DNA of 49,448 bases from Desulfobacterales bacterium (lineage in GTDB: Bacteria; Desulfobacterota; Desulfobacteria; Desulfobacterales; SURF-7), in contig JABHLN010000014.1 of the NCBI GenBank assembly GCA_018693105.1, forward strand, positions 1 through 49,448. Direction: 5' to 3'. Below the pieces are notes generated by a model. It saw only the letters and a list, made by a program, of their open reading frames with translations, was not told the origin of the DNA and ran no database searches. Made by a program: the position numbers and the translations under genes. The stretch's first letter is position 1; each line of letters begins with the position of its first letter. Below are positions 1,233 through 11,967 of this stretch, piece after piece.

Positions 1233-3270
1233 ATGGAAGCTATTATTGGAAATCTGCCCTTGGTATGTACCCTCGTGGGTTTGGCAGGTGTTGTATTCGC
1301 AGCTGTTATGGGAATGTCCGTAAAAGCAGCTCCGGCAGGTAATGAAAGAATGACTGAGATTGCAGATGCTATTAAAGCAGGCGCACTCGCATATCTTTAC
1401 CGCCAGATGAAAAGTATGGGTATTGTTGGTGCTATCATTGCCGTAATTCTTTTCTTTGCTCCCCATTACGGGAAATATGCAACCATGGGATTTGTCCTTG
1501 GAGCGGTTGCATCATTTTTAGCAGGTTATTTCGGAATGCGAGTTTCCGTTATTGCAAATGTAAGAACTGCTGAAGCAAGTAGAAACGGTCTTAATGCCGG
1601 TCTTACTATGGCATTCAAGGGCGGTTCAGTTACAGGTATGATCGTTGCCTCTCTTGCACTCACTGTATGTGCAGGTCTTTATTATTTTCTGTCAGGACAG
1701 GAAGGAATTACTTCTAAAGAAATTTCTGCAGCTATGATTGCTCTTGGTTTTGGTGGAAGTCTTATTTCTATCTTCGCACGTCTTGGTGGTGGAATATTCA
1801 CAAAGGGCGCTGATGTTGGTGCTGACCTTGTGGGTAAAGTAGAAGCCGGTATTCCTGAAGATGATCCAAGAAACCCAGGGGTTATTGCAGACAACGTTGG
1901 AGACAATGTTGGAGACGTTGCAGGCATGGGATCAGATATTTTTGAATCATACTGCTGTAACAATTGTTGCTGCTATGGTTCTTGCAGAACTTACATTCAA
2001 AAATAATGAAGTGACTATAATCTTTCCGCTCGCACTTGGAGCTGTATCTATTATCGCATCAGCCATTGCATGCTTCTTTGTAAGACTCAAAGAAGGAAGC
2101 GACTACATCATGGGCGCGCTATACAAAGGCATGTTCGGAGCCGCAATAATCGCAGGTGCCGCATTTTATCCTGTAACCAGTGAACTTATGGGCGGTGTTG
2201 AAGGCCTTTCAGTTGCTGCAATTTATAAATCTGCAATGGTTGGTCTTGTACTTACAGTTGTAATCGTTTTTATTACTGAATATTATACAGGTATTTATAA
2301 ACCGGTTAAAGATATTGCCGAAGCATCTACAACAGGCCACGGTACAAACATCATCCAGGGTCTTGCTGTAAGTATGCAGTCAACAGCTCTTCCTGTTCTT
2401 GCTATTTGTCTTGCAATCTTTTTAGCTGACCATTTTGCCGGACTTTACGGAATCGCAGTTGCCGCAGTTTCAATGCTTTCCATGACAGGTATGGTTATAG
2501 CTATTGATGCATACGGTCCTATTACAGATAATGCCGGTGGTATCGCTGAAATGGCTGAGATGGATGAAGCTGTTCGAGCTGTAACAGATCCTCTTGATGC
2601 AGTTGGAAATACTACAAAGGCTGTAACAAAAGGTTATGCAATCGGTTCTGCTGCACTTGCAGCTCTGGTCCTTTTTGCTGCTTATACACAGGAATTTGAA
2701 GCTCTTGGTAAAAAGCTTTCTTTCGAAATTTCTGATGTTAATGTTCTTATGGGCCTTTTTCTTGGCGGACTCCTTCCTTTCCTTTTCGGTTCAATGGCTA
2801 TGACAGCTGTTGGTAAAGCAGGTCATGCGGTTGTTAAGGAAGTTAGACGTCAGTTTGCTGAAATTCCGGGAATCATGGAAGGTACTGCAAAACCTGATTA
2901 TGCTGCATGTGTTGATATCGTAACAAAGTTTGCACTTTCAGAAATGATGATTCCTGCTATACTTCCTGTAATAGCTCCCGTTATCGTGGGTTTTGTTCTT
3001 GGACCGGAAGCTCTTGGCGGACTCCTTATCGGTAGTATCACAACCGGTATTTTTGTTGCCATATCAATGACAACAGGTGGTGCTGCATGGGATAATGCAA
3101 AAAAATACATCGAAGACGGAAACCTTGGCGGAAAAGGCAGCGATGCTCATAAAGCAGCGGTTACCGGTGATACAGTAGGCGACCCTTACAAAGACACTGC
3201 GGGTCCTGCTATCAACCCAATGATCAAGATTCTGAACGTTGTTGCACTTCTTCTCGTTCCATTCCTGTAG
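1233..3270 (+). pseudogene. hppA: Membrane-bound proton-translocating pyrophosphatase, frameshifted
   Basis: HppA hydrolyses cytoplasmic PPi and pumps ions across the inner membrane. The reading frame that starts at 1233 (SD GGAGG) runs through the substrate site ([13 protein letters not shown], then [19 protein letters not shown]) to FESYCCN, then goes out of frame. From 1963 the neighbouring frame carries the rest ([10 protein letters not shown] to the stop at 3270), including the second acidic motif [11 protein letters not shown]. Skipping one base near 1956-1963 restores about 678 aa, a normal mPPase length, and restores family spacing after FES. GNTTKA near 2610 has Lys at the position that marks the K+-independent H+-pumping class. 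All else is well preserved, so this is a recent mutation or a sequencing/assembly error. Confidence 0.85.
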
Positions 3271-5176: not shown

Positions 5177-5221
5177 AAACCATTAAAACCAATGAAACCA
5201 ATGAAACCAATGAAACCAATG
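5177..5221. repeat. 9-bp tandem repeat between convergent operons
   Basis: Four perfect copies of AAACCAATG (5186-5221) follow a degenerate copy (5177-5185). Upstream, 5137-5160 carries TTGGTTT-type sequence that can pair with the repeats, so the tract may fold and act as a loose bidirectional terminator between rluD (+) and rnfB (-). Any reading through it is only a (KPM)n peptide and is not a gene. Confidence 0.75.
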
Positions 5222-5231
5222 AAACCCTTAT

Positions 5232-7319
5232 TTATGCAGCAACATCCCTGTTATAACAAATCCTGCAACAATCAAGGCACCGTTTTGACTCTTTTATTGC
5301 GTCCTTTTGGGTTATTACAAGGTCTGCCTCTTCAAAGGTTTTGATCCTTTCATCAACAGGAAGTTCAGGCATCTCAGTTCTTGTGCTTTGTTCAATCCCG
5401 GGAACAGATTCGAAAATTGTTCCTGGAATATGTGTTTTAAACAATGACCTTTTTACAGGTGTTACTTCCTCACCGTTCAAATAAAGATGTATGGATCTTG
5501 CCGCTCTTCTGCCGCCACCTATTGCTTCTACAACAAGAGAAGCTCCTGTAGCAGAGTCACCGCCAGTAAAGATATAGGGAATATTAGTCTGGAGAGTTTC
5601 AGGGTCAGCCGAATCTATTGTGCTCCATCTCGTAGTCTCAAGATTTTCTAATGCAATATCCGTTTCTTTAAATGAAACATCCGGACCCTGACCTATTGCT
5701 GTAACCAGCATATCAGTATCAAGAACAGTTTCCGAACCTTCGATGGGAACCGGCCTTCTTCTGCCGCTTTCATCAGGTTCCCCTAATTCCATTTTTAAAT
5801 ACTCAAGACCCTTTACATTTCCGTTCTCATCAGCAACAACCTTATTAGGTGCTGCAAGGAAATGGAAATTAATACCTTCATGTTCGGCAGCCTCAATTTC
5901 AACCATATTGGCGGGCATTTCTTTTCTTGTACGCCTGTAAACAATTGAAACTTCATCAGCACCAAGTCTCACGAGTGTTCTTACACAATCAATTGCAGTA
6001 TTACCACCACCGATAACGACACATTTCTTACCTACAAATATCTTCTCATCACTATCGCCATGCTGGGTCAGGGAAAAGCGTGAAAGAAAATCAATTCCTG
6101 TATAACAACCATTAAGATCTTCACCTTCAATGCCGAGGTTATAATCCTTCCATGCTCCTATACCCATAAATATTGCATCAAAACCCTTTTCTTTAAGGGA
6201 ATCAACGGTAATATCCTGGCCAAGCTTTACATTAACATGAGACTTTATACCAAGATTTAATATACCTTCAATTTCCCATTCAAGCACTTTCTTGGGTAAG
6301 CGATATTCAGGAATTCCATATCGTATCATTCCGCCTAATTTTGGCATCATATCAAATATTTCAACATCATGACCAAGTCGACGGAGAAAGAAAGCACAAC
6401 TTAAACCAGCAGGTCCACCACCAATAACAGCTACCTTTTTCCCCGTAGAAGGAGCGCATGGTATATTGAACCGACTTCCGGAATTCATCTCAAAGTCAGC
6501 AACAAAACGTTTCATCTGGTTTATTGAGACCGGTTCTTCATCCTCAATATCCCTGCGGCATTTATCTTCACAAGGATGCGGACATACTCGACCGCATGAT
6601 AAAAGAAGCGGATTCCTTTCACGAATAGTATGAACAGAACCTTCGTAGTCACCTTCTCTTATTTGCCTTATATATTTTGGTATGTCTATTTCGGCAGGGC
6701 ATGTTTGAGCACATGGTGATAACGCTGCATCAAACTGGTTAAAAGTAAGAAGCCTGTCAGACATTGTTTTGACTTTAATAATATTTTTCGGACATGCAGT
6801 CTGGCAAGCACCACATCCTACACATTTGCTTTCAATAACTACCGGATAATTTTCAGGCCCCATTTCAATAGCATCAAATATACAAGCCTTTATACAGTCC
6901 CCGTATCCAAGACAACCTATACTGCATACACGTTTACCTCCGTGAATTGAATCAATTGCGCTGCAGCTGGTTACTCCCATATATTCATACTTATCTTCGG
7001 CCCTGTCACCGCCCCTGCACTCATTTTCAGACAACAGGGTCTCGGCAGTGCCCGGATCCATGCCCATAACCTGGGCTATTGCAGTAGCTGCCTCCATCCC
7101 TGCAATTACACATACGCTCGGTTTAGCTTTCTTACCAACAACCGCAGTAGCTGCTGCCGCACAACCGGTATAACCGCATCCGCCACAGTTTGCACCTGAG
7201 GTAAGTGATTCTATTTCAGCAATTCGGGGGTCCTCATACACATAAAATACTCTTGAGGCAACGGCGAGAACAATTCCGCAAGCACCGCCTATGCCCAACA
7301 TAAATAAAAACGCAGTCAC
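5232..7319 (-). CDS. rnfB: RnfB fused to a GltD-like FAD/NAD(P) oxidoreductase
   Basis: RnfB carries electrons between ferredoxin and the membrane part of the Rnf ion pump. The N-terminus has the usual single membrane helix (about 1-28), the RnfB cluster motif (Cys45, 48, 53, 70) and two 4Fe-4S ferredoxin motifs (about 130-190). Instead of ending there, it continues for about 500 residues as a GltD-type protein: a Cys-rich cluster domain (CAQTCPAEIDIPKYI, CGRVCPHPCEDKC), an FAD fold (VAVIGGGPAGLSCAFFLRRL) and a NAD(P) fold (VVIGGGNTAIDCVRTL). Total 695 aa against about 200-300 for plain RnfB. The start is GTG with a strong SD (GGAGG, 5-6 nt away). The frame is unbroken. It is the last gene of the operon, 91 bp after rnfA. 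Confidence 0.93.
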   Translation of the reverse strand: MTAFLFMLGIGGACGIVLAVASRVFYVYEDPRIAEIESLTSGANCGGCGYTGCAAAATAVVGKKAKPSVCVIAGMEAATAIAQVMGMDPGTAETLLSENECRGGDRAEDKYEYMGVTSCSAIDSIHGGKRVCSIGCLGYGDCIKACIFDAIEMGPENYPVVIESKCVGCGACQTACPKNIIKVKTMSDRLLTFNQFDAALSPCAQTCPAEIDIPKYIRQIREGDYEGSVHTIRERNPLLLSCGRVCPHPCEDKCRRDIEDEEPVSINQMKRFVADFEMNSGSRFNIPCAPSTGKKVAVIGGGPAGLSCAFFLRRLGHDVEIFDMMPKLGGMIRYGIPEYRLPKKVLEWEIEGILNLGIKSHVNVKLGQDITVDSLKEKGFDAIFMGIGAWKDYNLGIEGEDLNGCYTGIDFLSRFSLTQHGDSDEKIFVGKKCVVIGGGNTAIDCVRTLVRLGADEVSIVYRRTRKEMPANMVEIEAAEHEGINFHFLAAPNKVVADENGNVKGLEYLKMELGEPDESGRRRPVPIEGSETVLDTDMLVTAIGQGPDVSFKETDIALENLETTRWSTIDSADPETLQTNIPYIFTGGDSATGASLVVEAIGGGRRAARSIHLYLNGEEVTPVKRSLFKTHIPGTIFESVPGIEQSTRTEMPELPVDERIKTFEEADLVITQKDAIKESKRCLDCCRICYNRDVAA

Positions 7320-7410
7320 AATATCCTCCGGTTTATTAACTTAAGAAGAAAAGGAGAGAATAATAAATAGCTTTAAAGGAATACATGCCTTAATAATATC
7401 TATATTGTTA

Positions 7411-7983
7411 TTATACCATCCCTTTAAATGCGTAAAAGGCTAATGCAATTACACCTGCAGTAACAAGGCCTATTGAAGTATCTTCAAGCTGTTTTGGTAC
7501 TCTTGCCAGAATAATTCTTTCACGAACGCCTGCAAATAAAATAAGAGCAAGACCAAAACCAACTGCATAAGCAAATGAAGCAACCAATGACTGTACAAAT
7601 GTAAGTTCCTTATCAACATTTAGAACACAGGCACCCATGACCGCACAATTGGTAGTTATAAGCGGTAAAAAGATACCAAGACCGGCATATAATGCCGGTA
7701 TGCTCTTTTTTAAAAACATCTCTACAAATTGTACCAGTGAAGCGATCACAAGAATAAAAGAAATCGTTCTAAGATATACCAGATCAAAGCGGACAAGAAT
7801 TAAGTCATATATCAGCCATGTAATTGTTCCGGCCAGAACCAGTACAAATATAACAGCCATTGACATACCGACAGCTGTCTCCATCTTTTTGGATGTACCT
7901 AAAAATGGACAGTTGCCCAGAAATTGAGCAAGCAGAATATTGTTTACAAAAATACATCCTATGATAATTTCCATGTAGCCCAT
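7411..7983 (-). CDS. rnfA: Rnf complex integral membrane subunit A
   Basis: RnfA is a six-helix inner-membrane subunit related to NqrE. With RnfE it forms the membrane core that in known structures holds a 2Fe-2S cluster between Cys residues. The early NILLAQFLGNCPFLGTSKK segment and the central TNCAVMGACV segment are characteristic; each contains a conserved Cys. At 190 aa it has normal length. It starts 9 bp after the rnfE stop, so the pair is transcribed and probably translated together. Confidence 0.96.
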   Translation of the reverse strand: MGYMEIIIGCIFVNNILLAQFLGNCPFLGTSKKMETAVGMSMAVIFVLVLAGTITWLIYDLILVRFDLVYLRTISFILVIASLVQFVEMFLKKSIPALYAGLGIFLPLITTNCAVMGACVLNVDKELTFVQSLVASFAYAVGFGLALILFAGVRERIILARVPKQLEDTSIGLVTAGVIALAFYAFKGMV

Positions 7984-7992
7984 TTTATTCTC

Positions 7993-8586
7993 CTACTTAC
8001 TTCCAATAATATTCATACCGCAAAGCATAAGTCCTAGACAGACAAACGCACCAGGGGCCTGGACCATAAATGCAAACGGCTCATATGAAGCGCCGAAAAC
8101 TGACATGCCAAGAAACATTCCTGTTCCCAATATTTCTCTTACTGCTCCAAGGGCACCCAGGGAAAGAGTAAAACCGACACCCATGCCAAGCCCATCAGCA
8201 ACTGACGGGATAAGCTTGTTTTTAAAAGCAAACGCTTCCGCACGACCAAGTACAAGACAATTAACAACAATAAGGGGTATAAAAACACCGAGTTTTAAAA
8301 ATAAAGGATACGCAAAGGCCTGCATAAGAAGCTCAACCACAGTTACAAATGTCGCAATAATAACAATAAAACATGCAATTCTTACTTTTGCAGGAATAAA
8401 TTTACGCAAAATTGAAACAAGTATATTTGAACAAACCAGAACAAAGGTTGTGGCAAGGCCCATTCCAATACCATTTTCCATGGTTGTCGTCACACCCAGT
8501 ACAGGGCATAAGCCAAGCACAAGACGAAATGGTGCAATTTCTTCCCATAAGCCTTTGGTGAATTCCTGAGTTACAGTTTTAGCCAT
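7993..8586 (-). CDS. rnfE: Rnf complex integral membrane subunit E
   Basis: RnfE is the partner of RnfA (related to NqrD) in the electron-carrying membrane core. The N-terminal segment LVLGLCPVLGVTTTMENG and the middle IVVNCLVLGRAEAFA segment are family signatures, with the conserved Cys in each. The 197-aa length is normal and several hydrophobic helices cover most of it. It begins 17 bp after the rnfG stop. Identity is secure from motif content and operon position. Confidence 0.96.
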   Translation of the reverse strand: MAKTVTQEFTKGLWEEIAPFRLVLGLCPVLGVTTTMENGIGMGLATTFVLVCSNILVSILRKFIPAKVRIACFIVIIATFVTVVELLMQAFAYPLFLKLGVFIPLIVVNCLVLGRAEAFAFKNKLIPSVADGLGMGVGFTLSLGALGAVREILGTGMFLGMSVFGASYEPFAFMVQAPGAFVCLGLMLCGMNIIGSK

Positions 8587-8603: not shown

Positions 8604-9194
8604 TCAAAAGCTTTTAACTTTCTCTGTAAGCTGAGATTTTATTTCTTTATATATTTTACCTGCATCATTTGCAGCATTACAAACCGCACGTGATGTTATG
8701 GTTGCACCGCTCATGGCATTTATTTTACCACCGTCATTTGTTACCAGAATTGGAGATTCTATTGAAAGGCCTTTTAATTGAGATACAAAGCTCGGATCTT
8801 CCTTGGCTTTTGCACCCAGTCCGGGGGTTTCACTGTGAGTTGTAACAGCAGCGCCCAAAACCGAGCCATTATCAATATCGACACCTATCATAAGACCGAT
8901 ATCCCCACCGTAACCGCCTTTACCGAATCCTTCAAAAGCAACACAATTCGTTTTCCCATCAAACTTGCCGACAAAAAAATTCTTTTCTGTTTCACCAACC
9001 TTTAATGTAAAACGATCTGCTGTAGGATCATTTGAAGAACCTTCGAAAATTGACTTTAATGCAGGACCTTTAACAAACTTAACTTGCTGGTCTTCAATCT
9101 TGCTGCTTGTTTGAGTTTTAAGCCAGTGAAGAAGACCACCGGAAGAAGAACTTAATAATACAAGAACAACTACCATTTTTATTAATTCAGTCAT
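8604..9194 (-). CDS. rnfG: Rnf complex subunit G, covalent-FMN protein
   Basis: RnfG is a periplasm-facing subunit with FMN covalently linked to a Thr in the S(T)GAT motif. Here that motif is SGATITSRAV near the C-terminus, and an N-terminal membrane helix (MTELIKMVVVLVLL) anchors it. I place the start at ATG 9194, three codons inside the longest open frame. The earlier codon at 9203 is TTG and overlaps the rnfD stop, whereas the ATG is preceded by GGAAAGG at suitable spacing. The resulting 196 aa is normal for the family. Confidence 0.94.
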   Translation of the reverse strand: MTELIKMVVVLVLLSSSSGGLLHWLKTQTSSKIEDQQVKFVKGPALKSIFEGSSNDPTADRFTLKVGETEKNFFVGKFDGKTNCVAFEGFGKGGYGGDIGLMIGVDIDNGSVLGAAVTTHSETPGLGAKAKEDPSFVSQLKGLSIESPILVTNDGGKINAMSGATITSRAVCNAANDAGKIYKEIKSQLTEKVKSF

Positions 9195-9195
9195 T

Positions 9196-10155
9196 TTACG
9201 CAACCTTTCCGATAGCTTTTGGTCTTATCTTATCTATAAGTGGATTGGCCAGATTCATTAAAAGAATTGCCAGAACCACACCATCAACATAAGCGCCAAT
9301 GTTTCTTATCAGCACGGTCATAACACCACAACCCGCTCCATATATCAGCATCGGGATAAAATTTACCGGTGACGACGAATCTTCAGTCGAAAGATAGAAT
9401 GCACCGAGCAGAGTATATCCGGTTAATAAGTGAAATACAGGCCCTGCATAATTTTGGGGATCGGAAATCTGAAAAGCCAGGGCTGTAATAAATATACCGG
9501 CCAGAAAGGAAATTGTGATTTCCCACCGGATAAACCCCCTGATGATAAGATAAATACCGCCTAAGATAATTCCAATACCAAATGTAGCCCCTATTCCTCC
9601 AACCTGTTTTCCGGTTAGTAGATCAATTATTGAGAACTGATCTACAATCGATACCCCAAAATTTTTAAGGTATGCAAGAGGATAAACCATAACCATATCA
9701 AGATCATAGTTTACAAGGGCCGCGTCAAAATCGAAATAATCCTTCCAGGCGACCATCAGGATGGACATGCCGATAAGTACCGGGTTAAAGGGATTGGCTC
9801 CTATGCCTCCAAAAATCTGCTTACCTATGATAACAGCCACAAAAGTACCTGTTACTACAACCCACCATGGCGAGGTTGCGGGCAGCATCATGGCAAACAA
9901 AAGACCTATTAGAGAGGCATTCCCGTCACCCACCGAAACCGGTTGCTTGGAAATTTTATTGAATGCAAGTTCCCAGAGAATTGCAGAAGAAACGGACATG
10001 GAAACAACAGCAACTGCAGAGGCACCATACATAATCAAACCGGGTATGATGGCAAGCATTGCTGCTAACATGATATGATAACTTCTAGTGGTTATTGAGC
10101 TCCCATCGTGCCAGAAAGGCGCATGGGAAACAATTAATTTTTTCTGACTATGCAT
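9196..10155 (-). CDS. rnfD: Rnf complex integral membrane subunit D
   Basis: RnfD (related to NqrB) is a multi-helix membrane subunit that normally carries covalent FMN and takes part in ion translocation. The N-terminal LIVSHAPFWHDGSSITTRSY and the long hydrophobic body match the family; the STEDSSSPVN stretch lies where the family has a T/S-rich flavin-attachment segment. The start is set at ATG 10155 (MHSQKK), because the longer frame would add a Lys/Arg-rich leader inside rnfC. This start overlaps the rnfC stop by 8 bp, consistent with translational coupling. Confidence 0.93.
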   Translation of the reverse strand: MHSQKKLIVSHAPFWHDGSSITTRSYHIMLAAMLAIIPGLIMYGASAVAVVSMSVSSAILWELAFNKISKQPVSVGDGNASLIGLLFAMMLPATSPWWVVVTGTFVAVIIGKQIFGGIGANPFNPVLIGMSILMVAWKDYFDFDAALVNYDLDMVMVYPLAYLKNFGVSIVDQFSIIDLLTGKQVGGIGATFGIGIILGGIYLIIRGFIRWEITISFLAGIFITALAFQISDPQNYAGPVFHLLTGYTLLGAFYLSTEDSSSPVNFIPMLIYGAGCGVMTVLIRNIGAYVDGVVLAILLMNLANPLIDKIRPKAIGKVA

Positions 10156-11461
10156 TCTCTTCCTCCGCTGCCTCAGTCTCTTCCTCTGCTTCCACTTCTG
10201 CAGGGGCATTGGCAAGTTCATATTTTGCTAATCTTATATATTGAAATACCGGCATTTTAGAGGTGCATACATAACTGCATAGACCACACTCAACACATGA
10301 ATAAAGGTCATGAGCATCAGCAGCCTCCTGATATTCACCGGCTTCAAGAAAGCGAACAAGGATATTGACCTGAATCTTTGAAGGACAGATTCTGACACAT
10401 TCACCGCAGTTAATACATGGATAGTCTGAAACAGTTTCAACTTTTGAGCCATCCTGGATAATAACTGCATCTGTATCAGCCTGAACAGGATAATCCACTG
10501 AATATATTGATGATCCAGTCATAGGGCCACCAACAATCACTCTGTCCTTATCTTTAACTTTGATATCAAATGCTTTAAAAACATCACTTACCGGGGTTCC
10601 CATTGTTACAGACACATATTTCTTGCTTCCGTCCTTATCAACTATTTCTACAACCTTTTTTACAGGTATTTTGCCCTCGGTATATGCAGCGCCCAATGAT
10701 GCTATGGCCTCTGCGCTTATCAGGCAAATACCCATGTCTTCAAGTGATCTGCCGGCAGGAACATAATCACCAAGAACCTCTTTTGCAATCATGAACGGCA
10801 GGGCTGAGGGATACTCTTTATCAATGATTGTGACATCTGCTCCAGTTTTATTAGCATTATGCATCAAGGAGGATGGAACAGCCATTGTAATATTTTCAAT
10901 CCCGGTAATTTCCTTCAGTATGCCGATACCTTTAATTATTAAATCGGTCCTTGTTTTTACAACAAACTGGGTTGTTGTCATCAGAAGGTCCTTATCCATC
11001 CCGTATATAACAATCCTGTTAATAGATTTTTCAGGATCGTTTAAAATTTTTAAGGGTAGTCCACCCGGTACGGATCCAAGGAAGTCCACTGCATTTGCAA
11101 GGTCTGGCTTATTACAGATTTCTCCGAATTTTTCATCGATTTCTTCAGTATCATCCGTGTCTATGGTAATGGAGGTAAAAGCCCTGCCAAAATTACCGGT
11201 ATAATTTGATATTGATGAGATAGTTCCAGTAACCGTGGAAATCACATAATCTTCGCTATCAATAACCGGTACCAGTTTCTGGCCTGTTTTAACCTTATCA
11301 CCCACTTTTAATTGAACGGCATCACTACGTTCAAAAGATGTACCTGATAAGATTGTAACCTTCTTTGGGGCCGGAATTATTTCGGGCTCTGTATGTGTTG
11401 CACTTAAAATATCATATTCAAGCCTGGGTTTTAATAATCCGACAAATGTTTTTTTAATCAT
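10148..11461 (-). CDS. rnfC: Rnf complex ferredoxin/NADH-interacting subunit C
   Basis: RnfC is the peripheral subunit that exchanges electrons with NAD(H). It has an N-terminal barrel-sandwich region (residues 1-110), a flavoprotein-like central domain, an SLBB region and two 4Fe-4S motifs near the end (CINCGECVRICP and CVECGLCSYVC), followed by a short acidic tail. I choose ATG 11461 (MIKKTFVG), which has GAAAAGGG upstream and gives 437 aa; an open extension to 11539 overlaps the preceding gene and lacks family similarity. It follows the cytochrome gene by 62 bp. Confidence 0.95.
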   Translation of the reverse strand: MIKKTFVGLLKPRLEYDILSATHTEPEIIPAPKKVTILSGTSFERSDAVQLKVGDKVKTGQKLVPVIDSEDYVISTVTGTISSISNYTGNFGRAFTSITIDTDDTEEIDEKFGEICNKPDLANAVDFLGSVPGGLPLKILNDPEKSINRIVIYGMDKDLLMTTTQFVVKTRTDLIIKGIGILKEITGIENITMAVPSSLMHNANKTGADVTIIDKEYPSALPFMIAKEVLGDYVPAGRSLEDMGICLISAEAIASLGAAYTEGKIPVKKVVEIVDKDGSKKYVSVTMGTPVSDVFKAFDIKVKDKDRVIVGGPMTGSSIYSVDYPVQADTDAVIIQDGSKVETVSDYPCINCGECVRICPSKIQVNILVRFLEAGEYQEAADAHDLYSCVECGLCSYVCTSKMPVFQYIRLAKYELANAPAEVEAEEETEAAEEENA

Positions 11462-11523
11462 AATTAAACCCTTTTCTGCCGTAATAGTTTTAAACACCTT
11501 ATACCGGCAGCTAAAAATTACTT

Positions 11524-11967
11524 TTACATTACGTGGCAATCAGCGCATTCTACCGGACCGGCTTCGGTTTCAAAGTCCTGGTGGCATGTAATGCACTGTC
11601 CGTGGAAAGCATCGGCTTTTTTCAGCATTTCAGTATCTTCAATTTCATCCGCCTCGTGACATTCCAGGCAGGACTCCAGATCTGCAGTATCACCGGATTG
11701 ATGGCAATCTCCACAGGCACTGGTATCTATTTCGTCTTCTTCAGGATGATGATGGCAGTCCACACAGGCAAGTCCGTAACCGGAATCCGATGTATGTACC
11801 TTATGAGTGAATAAAACCTTTCCTGCATCACTCTTAAACATAATCCTAACCGGCTCAAAAGTTTTTTCGGTAACCTTTGCAGAAACTGCAGTGTAGCATA
11901 CCACTCCGACAATAAATAAAATAATTGCCAGCCTGTATGCTGTCTGAATCTCATTCTTTGAAGTCAT
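11524..11967 (-). CDS. Membrane-anchored multiheme cytochrome c (c3/c7-like), first gene of the rnf operon
   Basis: A 147-aa exported cytochrome. An N-terminal hydrophobic helix (about 11-29) serves as uncleaved anchor or signal. Five CXXCH heme-binding sites follow (Cys68, 85, 100, 125 and 141), with extra His residues (THKVH at 55-58, HHH at 72-74, His122) able to act as distal ligands, as in class III cytochromes. It leads the rnf genes and has an SD-like AAAGGGA. By analogy with other Rnf operons that include multiheme cytochromes, it probably connects Rnf to the periplasmic cytochrome pool. Its redox partner is inferred. Confidence 0.9.
   Translation of the reverse strand: MTSKNEIQTAYRLAIILFIVGVVCYTAVSAKVTEKTFEPVRIMFKSDAGKVLFTHKVHTSDSGYGLACVDCHHHPEEDEIDTSACGDCHQSGDTADLESCLECHEADEIEDTEMLKKADAFHGQCITCHQDFETEAGPVECADCHVM

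Follow-up and report, generated by a model that had tools for sequence, protein, structure and literature searches.

The last gene of an rnf operon in the window (the whole stretch of 49,448 nt that was analysed, from a Desulfobacterales bacterium) codes for an RnfB protein joined in-frame to a flavoprotein of the StnC/NfnABC kind. This fusion is a further member of the published Tol2-type, or Rnf2, complexes, a kind that is already known from marine sulfate reducers. We consider it reasonably likely, with ample room for doubt, that the protein is the RnfB of a cytochrome-linked Rnf2 that would take electrons from NADPH through its StnC-like module and from ferredoxin through RnfB, and pass them, with ion coupling, to periplasmic cytochrome c.

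The operon runs on the minus strand from position 11967 to 5232 and contains, in this order, a gene for a cytochrome with five hemes, rnfC, rnfD, rnfG, rnfE, rnfA and the fusion gene, and thus all six Rnf subunits (Table 1). The reading frame of the fusion starts with a GTG codon (7319-7317, minus strand) and has no internal stops. A domain search of the 695-aa product against Pfam and NCBIfam placed the RnfB matches (TIGR01944 above its cut-off, FeS and Fer4) entirely within residues 1-190, followed by Fer4_20 and Pyr_redox_2 matches spanning residues 201-602; the module is ordered as a two-cluster domain (Fer4_20), an FAD Rossmann fold and an NAD(P)H Rossmann fold. The first-pass annotation had described a terminal Rnf gene in which RnfB is fused in-frame to a flavoprotein, and both the position and the uninterrupted frame are borne out.

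Table 1. Features of the fusion gene and of its operon in the window.
Feature	Position	Strand	Basis and remarks
rnfB-gltD fusion gene	5232..7319	-	695 aa, class I, predicted nucleotide site intact; ORF and family scans
GGAGG ribosome-binding site	7325..7329	-	5 nt upstream of the GTG start; sequence
N-terminal membrane helix of RnfB, residues 2-24	7248..7316	-	Helix in the model, hydrophobic sequence, RnfB topology in PMC11889175
Mobile Fd-like [4Fe-4S] domain of RnfB, Cys 45/48/53/70	7110..7187	-	Pfam FeS, residues 42-71; Cys invariant in 84 fused proteins
Dicluster ferredoxin domain of RnfB, Cys 132/136/142/146 and 166/169/172/176	6792..6926	-	Pfam Fer4; Cys invariant
GltD/StnC-like module, residues 198-620	5460..6728	-	Family scans, phmmer alignment, structural alignment
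NAD(P)H site GGGNTAxD...YRRTRKEMPA, residues 437-470	5910..6011	-	Predicted; nearly unchanged across the 48 proteins of class I, decayed in the 36 of class II
C-terminal tail, residues 646-688, Cys 681/684/688	5256..5384	-	phmmer alignment; structural alignment through residue 686
rnfA	7411..7983	-	TIGR01943 above cut-off
rnfE	7993..8586	-	TIGR01948 above cut-off
rnfG, periplasmic covalent-FMN subunit	8604..9203	-	NF045876 (RnfG_DVU2794) and TIGR01947 above cut-off; FMN_bind
rnfD	9196..10221	-	TIGR01946 above cut-off; ORF from the first start codon, true start possibly further in
rnfC without NADH/FMN motifs, both 4Fe-4S motifs present	10148..11539	-	ORF from the first start codon
Five-heme class III c-type cytochrome, 147 aa, N-terminal signal/anchor	11524..11967	-	Cytochrom_CIII; five CxxCH; first gene of the operon

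Large fused RnfB proteins are recurrent in the phylum. A survey of 395 of its genomes identified 30 loci with a full-length fusion, ca. 50-100% identical to the window protein and all free of stops, as well as at least 26 further full-length matches, among those listed, with ca. 37-42% identity and belonging to a second class (class II, see below). In the loci that were fetched, the same fusion with an intact nucleotide site (class I) occurs in 48 distinct proteins, the window's included. Carriers include Desulfosarcina alkanivorans, an isolate with a complete chromosome (L068), Desulfopila aestuarii, Desulfocarbo indianensis and many MAGs. An error of assembly or of frame, joining two separate halves, was considered as the origin of the gene, but it is ruled out for practical purposes by these stop-free loci in independent genomes, including the complete isolate chromosome, and by the published detection of Rnf2 subunits of D. 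multivorans by proteomics (PMC5109826). In a tree of the RnfB halves, 85 fused proteins formed one group (SH-aLRT 97) separate from 21 small RnfB proteins, which suggests a single origin for the fusion.

The flavoprotein half had been assigned to the small subunit of glutamate synthase (GltD), with Fe-S cysteines of its own. The Fe-S content stands, and GltD-type holds at the level of the superfamily; nevertheless, sequence and modelling place this half with StnC/NfnABC rather than with GltD proper. The AlphaFold2 model of the fusion protein is confident over its whole length (pLDDT 94.5, pTM 0.90) and replaced an earlier one, made from 19 sequences, that was poor in the Fe-S parts (pLDDT 68.7). 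Its best structural match with VIA-align was 9bov_A (Z 43.3, rmsd 1.6 over 467 residues, model residues 198-686), with a second protein of the StnC/NfnABC type, 8oh5_C, at Z 42.0; structures of NfnB (Z about 33) and GltD (about 28-32) ranked below these. Likewise, in a tree of the module, the fusion clusters (SH-aLRT 99) with a 599-aa protein and with StnC-like proteins 830-1270 aa long, and not with NfnB. Residue R239 of StnC aligns with R340 of the window protein, and this arginine is invariant in all 84 aligned fused proteins. The FAD of StnC is reported to oxidise NADPH without bifurcation and to feed a linear Fe-S chain (PMC10482914).

The module is also not a simply appended GltD, its first Fe-S segment being located at the C-terminus, as it is in StnC/NfnABC: the tail of the fusion (residues 646-688) is homologous, by phmmer, to residues ~4-45 of NfnB, with residues 646-684 forming the aligned stretch. 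The large subunits of StnC/NfnABC (8oh5_C, 9bov_A, 9n5u_A) share with the window protein a GltD module with FAD and NADPH sites, an Fe-S tail at the C-terminal side and linear transfer into Fe-S clusters, but they are joined to NuoG/FdhF-like domains and work with a bifurcating StnAB, while that of the window is joined to RnfB; no genes for StnA/StnB-like partners occur in the window operon, where the neighbours are rnf and cytochrome genes. NfnB (5jca_L, 4ylf_B) has a homologous NADPH/FAD/two-cluster module, although its CxxC segment is N-terminal, as opposed to C-terminal in the window protein, and it bifurcates together with NfnA. The operon contains neither an NfnA-like gene nor a gltB-like gene for the partner of GltD in glutamate synthase. 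A replacement of Nfn by the fusion was rejected, because the same genome carries nfnA and nfnB as neighbours on another contig (C88).

The alignment of 84 fused proteins comprises the 48 of class I and 36 of class II. In class I, the GGGN.A.D, YRR, EMPA and GRRRP segments are 88-100% conserved, whereas class II has lost most residues of the nucleotide site and retains the FAD GxGxxG motif, R340 and all cluster cysteines except C242 and C685. Class II is nested within class I on the module tree, with one main loss and a separate one in L084. Since the residues of the site are kept in class I and mostly lost in class II, where most cluster cysteines persist, their conservation points to selection on the predicted site in class I. 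Access of NAD(P)H through the fused module, as first proposed, is supported. The contrast between both classes also offers a natural control for testing the site.

The two classes also differ in their surroundings. Other rnf genes were seen with 35 of the 48 class I genes, about 13 having none nearby (some of the fetched stretches are short), and they were not seen with 31 of 37 class II genes; 21 of the 37 lie less than 2 kb from a gene for RseC. Six class II genes are situated in rnf operons whose RnfC lacks its motifs, which would leave these complexes without any nucleotide site. The genome of the window itself carries a second RnfB-GltD fusion (contig C24, L036:6673-8724, minus strand; 683 aa), of class II and with a decayed nucleotide site, which is away from rnf genes and adjoins an RseC_MucC gene (L036:6200-6637, minus strand), a pairing common in relatives. 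Whole cytochrome-rnf operons with a class II fused RnfB were found in MAGs with labels from outside the phylum, Spirochaetes (L097) and Aminicenantes (L100), possibly by transfer or binning error. The 599-aa relative (genome G074, L054:6898-8697, plus strand) lacks the membrane anchor and first cluster domain of RnfB and is situated near genes for 2-oxoacid:ferredoxin oxidoreductase and succinyl-CoA-synthetase-like proteins, a location that fits a possible ferredoxin/NADP role.

In canonical Rnf, electrons flow from RnfB through the [2Fe-2S] cluster of RnfA/E, RnfG and RnfD to RnfC, where NAD+ is reduced; this U-shaped path has been established in A. woodii (PMC11889175). RnfC from the window scored below the cut-off of TIGR01945 (187.9 versus 245.95 bits) and of Complex1_51K (23.8 versus 31.2 bits) and gave no SLBB match in Pfam; aligned to 7zc6_C, 9eri_C and 8ahx_C, it lacks the GxGGAxFP (NADH) and ECEP (FMN) motifs, and it seems incapable of reducing NAD+ at the end of the route. 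Both motifs are present in 14 operons with a small RnfB and absent in all 33 with a fused one, a count that does not stand for 33 independent cases nor give statistical proof of an association, because on the RnfC tree the loss is one change. A strict one-to-one tie between fusion and motif loss is ruled out by two complete-looking operons, from a Desulfofervidaceae MAG (L124) and Desulfovibrio sp. ZJ369 (L136), that combine a small RnfB with an RnfC missing both motifs, showing that the loss does not need the fusion; L126 was left out of this comparison, since its contig ends before its 3' genes. With neither motif in the RnfC of the operon, the only nucleotide site is probably the one on RnfB. 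The annotated role of the module as a second NAD(P)H route beside RnfC was therefore probably wrong.

In 20 of the 33 fused operons, rnfC adjoins a gene for a cytochrome with 4-10 heme motifs. Several of the others are cut by contig ends, but none was seen near the operons of L048, L051, L052, L081 and L085. In Desulfovibrio sp. ZJ369, rnfC is preceded by a gene for a 10-heme cytochrome.

For the complex of the window we infer an electron route, a use of NADP(H) over NAD(H), a coupling to ions and a periplasmic partner as follows. NADPH (or NADP+) would bind the StnC-like module on RnfB, whose FAD would split the hydride into single electrons; these would pass through the two GltD clusters to the dicluster ferredoxin of RnfB and on to its mobile Fd-like domain, a chain that soluble ferredoxin could load as well. 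The [2Fe-2S] cluster of RnfA/E would then carry them across the membrane to the flavin of RnfG, coupled to the movement of Na+ or H+ as in other Rnf complexes, and the c-type cytochrome of the same operon would receive or supply them on the periplasmic side, an exit suggested by the apparent absence of an NADH/FMN site in RnfC. The likeness of the module to NfnB and StnC favours NADP(H) over NAD(H). In cells NADPH is at about -370 mV and class III cytochromes at about -200 to -350 mV; with potentials this close the drop would be small and reversal possible. On a wider scale, and only tentatively, with doubt slightly outweighing belief, Rnf2 might work as an NADPH(ferredoxin):cytochrome c oxidoreductase that translocates ions, its nucleotide port having shifted from RnfC to RnfB with a switch from NADH to NADPH; a derived class, whose genes are mostly orphans and often adjoin rseC, would then have lost the site and retained the FAD-type fold and the clusters. 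If electrons from NADPH and ferredoxin do reach the periplasmic cytochrome pool with ion coupling, Rnf2 would be a main energy-coupling site in organisms that are important for the turnover of carbon and sulfur in the seabed.

Other readings of the flavoprotein half have to be weighed against this one. It could be a tethered ferredoxin:NADP+ oxidoreductase on a side branch, swapping electrons between ferredoxin and NADP(H) inside RnfB, with only ferredoxin electrons entering the membrane part; the 599-aa relative, which lacks the membrane domain and adjoins a 2-oxoacid:ferredoxin oxidoreductase, and the class I genes without rnf neighbours are in line with such a role. We nevertheless regard this as unlikely, given that the mobile Fd-like cluster is kept in all 84 aligned fused proteins and that 35 of 48 class I genes accompany other rnf genes. 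Somewhat less probable still is a module that uses NAD(H), by which Rnf2 would remain NAD-linked and only the place of the site would have shifted from RnfC to RnfB: the YRRxxxEMPA and SGRRRP segments match those of the NADPH-using relatives NfnB and StnC, even though two published accounts annotate NAD+-binding sites in homologues (PMC5109826) and state a linkage to the NADH pool (PMC11887813).

A bifurcating site as in Nfn, at which the electrons of NADPH would part, one going to ferredoxin and one to the pump and cytochrome, would be compatible with the homology to NfnB and with the conserved flavin arginine, but appears very improbable: the closest relatives are of the StnC type, with an FAD reported as non-bifurcating (PMC10482914), the module tree sets the fusion apart from NfnB, and the operon has no NfnA-like gene. 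The persistence of class II proteins despite their lost site could indicate that the flavoprotein half no longer performs any nucleotide chemistry and is a remnant with a structural or regulatory part to play; for the window protein, of class I and with a site near-invariant in 48 proteins, this is the hardest of the four to credit. The reading that we prefer thus remains that of an RnfB fed by NADPH and ferredoxin in a cytochrome-linked Rnf2.

Enlarged RnfB proteins in some Desulfobacterales, which the first-pass annotation mentioned, are on record in two publications. The Tol2-type Rnf of D. toluolica is described with an RnfB of ~700 aa with NAD+-binding sites, an RnfC without NADH domains and a 15-kDa cytochrome in the cluster, and the complex was detected by proteomics (PMC5109826); Rnf2 is assigned to the core genome of Desulfobacteraceae and was constitutively formed in six strains (PMC11887813). 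Compared by description with Tol2 and D. multivorans, the complex of the window shows no difference in kind: its RnfB, at 695 aa, corresponds to the ~700-aa protein with Fe-S and nucleotide-binding parts, its RnfC likewise lacks the NADH:quinone-oxidoreductase and SLBB domains, and its cytochrome (147 aa, five CxxCH) corresponds to the small acidic one (15 kDa) encoded in the Tol2 cluster. The fusion from a Desulfobacula sp. MAG (L069) is 66% identical to the window protein. We found no paper on an RnfB-GltD or RnfB-glutamate synthase fusion by that name, the relevant literature using "large RnfB" and "Rnf2"; in the Rnf2 literature, the primary Tol2 account and the supplement of PMC11887813 apart, we also met no mention of a kinship with StnC, a permuted tail, two classes of fusion or a link to RseC.

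The canonical complexes of A. woodii (9eri) and C. tetanomorphum (7zc6) share the six subunits and the same membrane core with that of the window, but have a short RnfB and an RnfC that binds FMN and NADH, whereas the window RnfC lacks the motifs for both and appears to have no such site. A c-type cytochrome has also been added to the Rnf complex of Methanosarcina, compared here from the literature; we know of no NADPH module on its RnfB. The cytochrome in question, the multiheme MmcA, is an extra part of that complex (PMC12174285).

The genome of the window, which is 91.8% complete, contains further genes of this type. A second RnfC, canonical and with both motifs, is encoded at the end of contig C131 (L166:3709-5076), and the start of C11 (L167:466-4425) carries RnfD/NqrB-, RnfG/NqrC-, NqrD-, NqrE- and NqrF-like genes; if both contig ends are contiguous, they would form an RnfC plus Nqr-like hybrid. 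In a relative (G408, L170) there is a B-F set without an adjacent RnfC. Within the window, an HppA-like membrane pyrophosphatase gene (1233-3270, plus strand) appears as a pair of ORFs (1233-2006 and 1861-3270) that overlap and differ in frame, whereas a relative (L042) has a single ORF; either a frame error or a break in the gene could account for this. Directly downstream of the rnfB stop codon (about 5180-5226) there is a short run of near-identical accaatgaa units.
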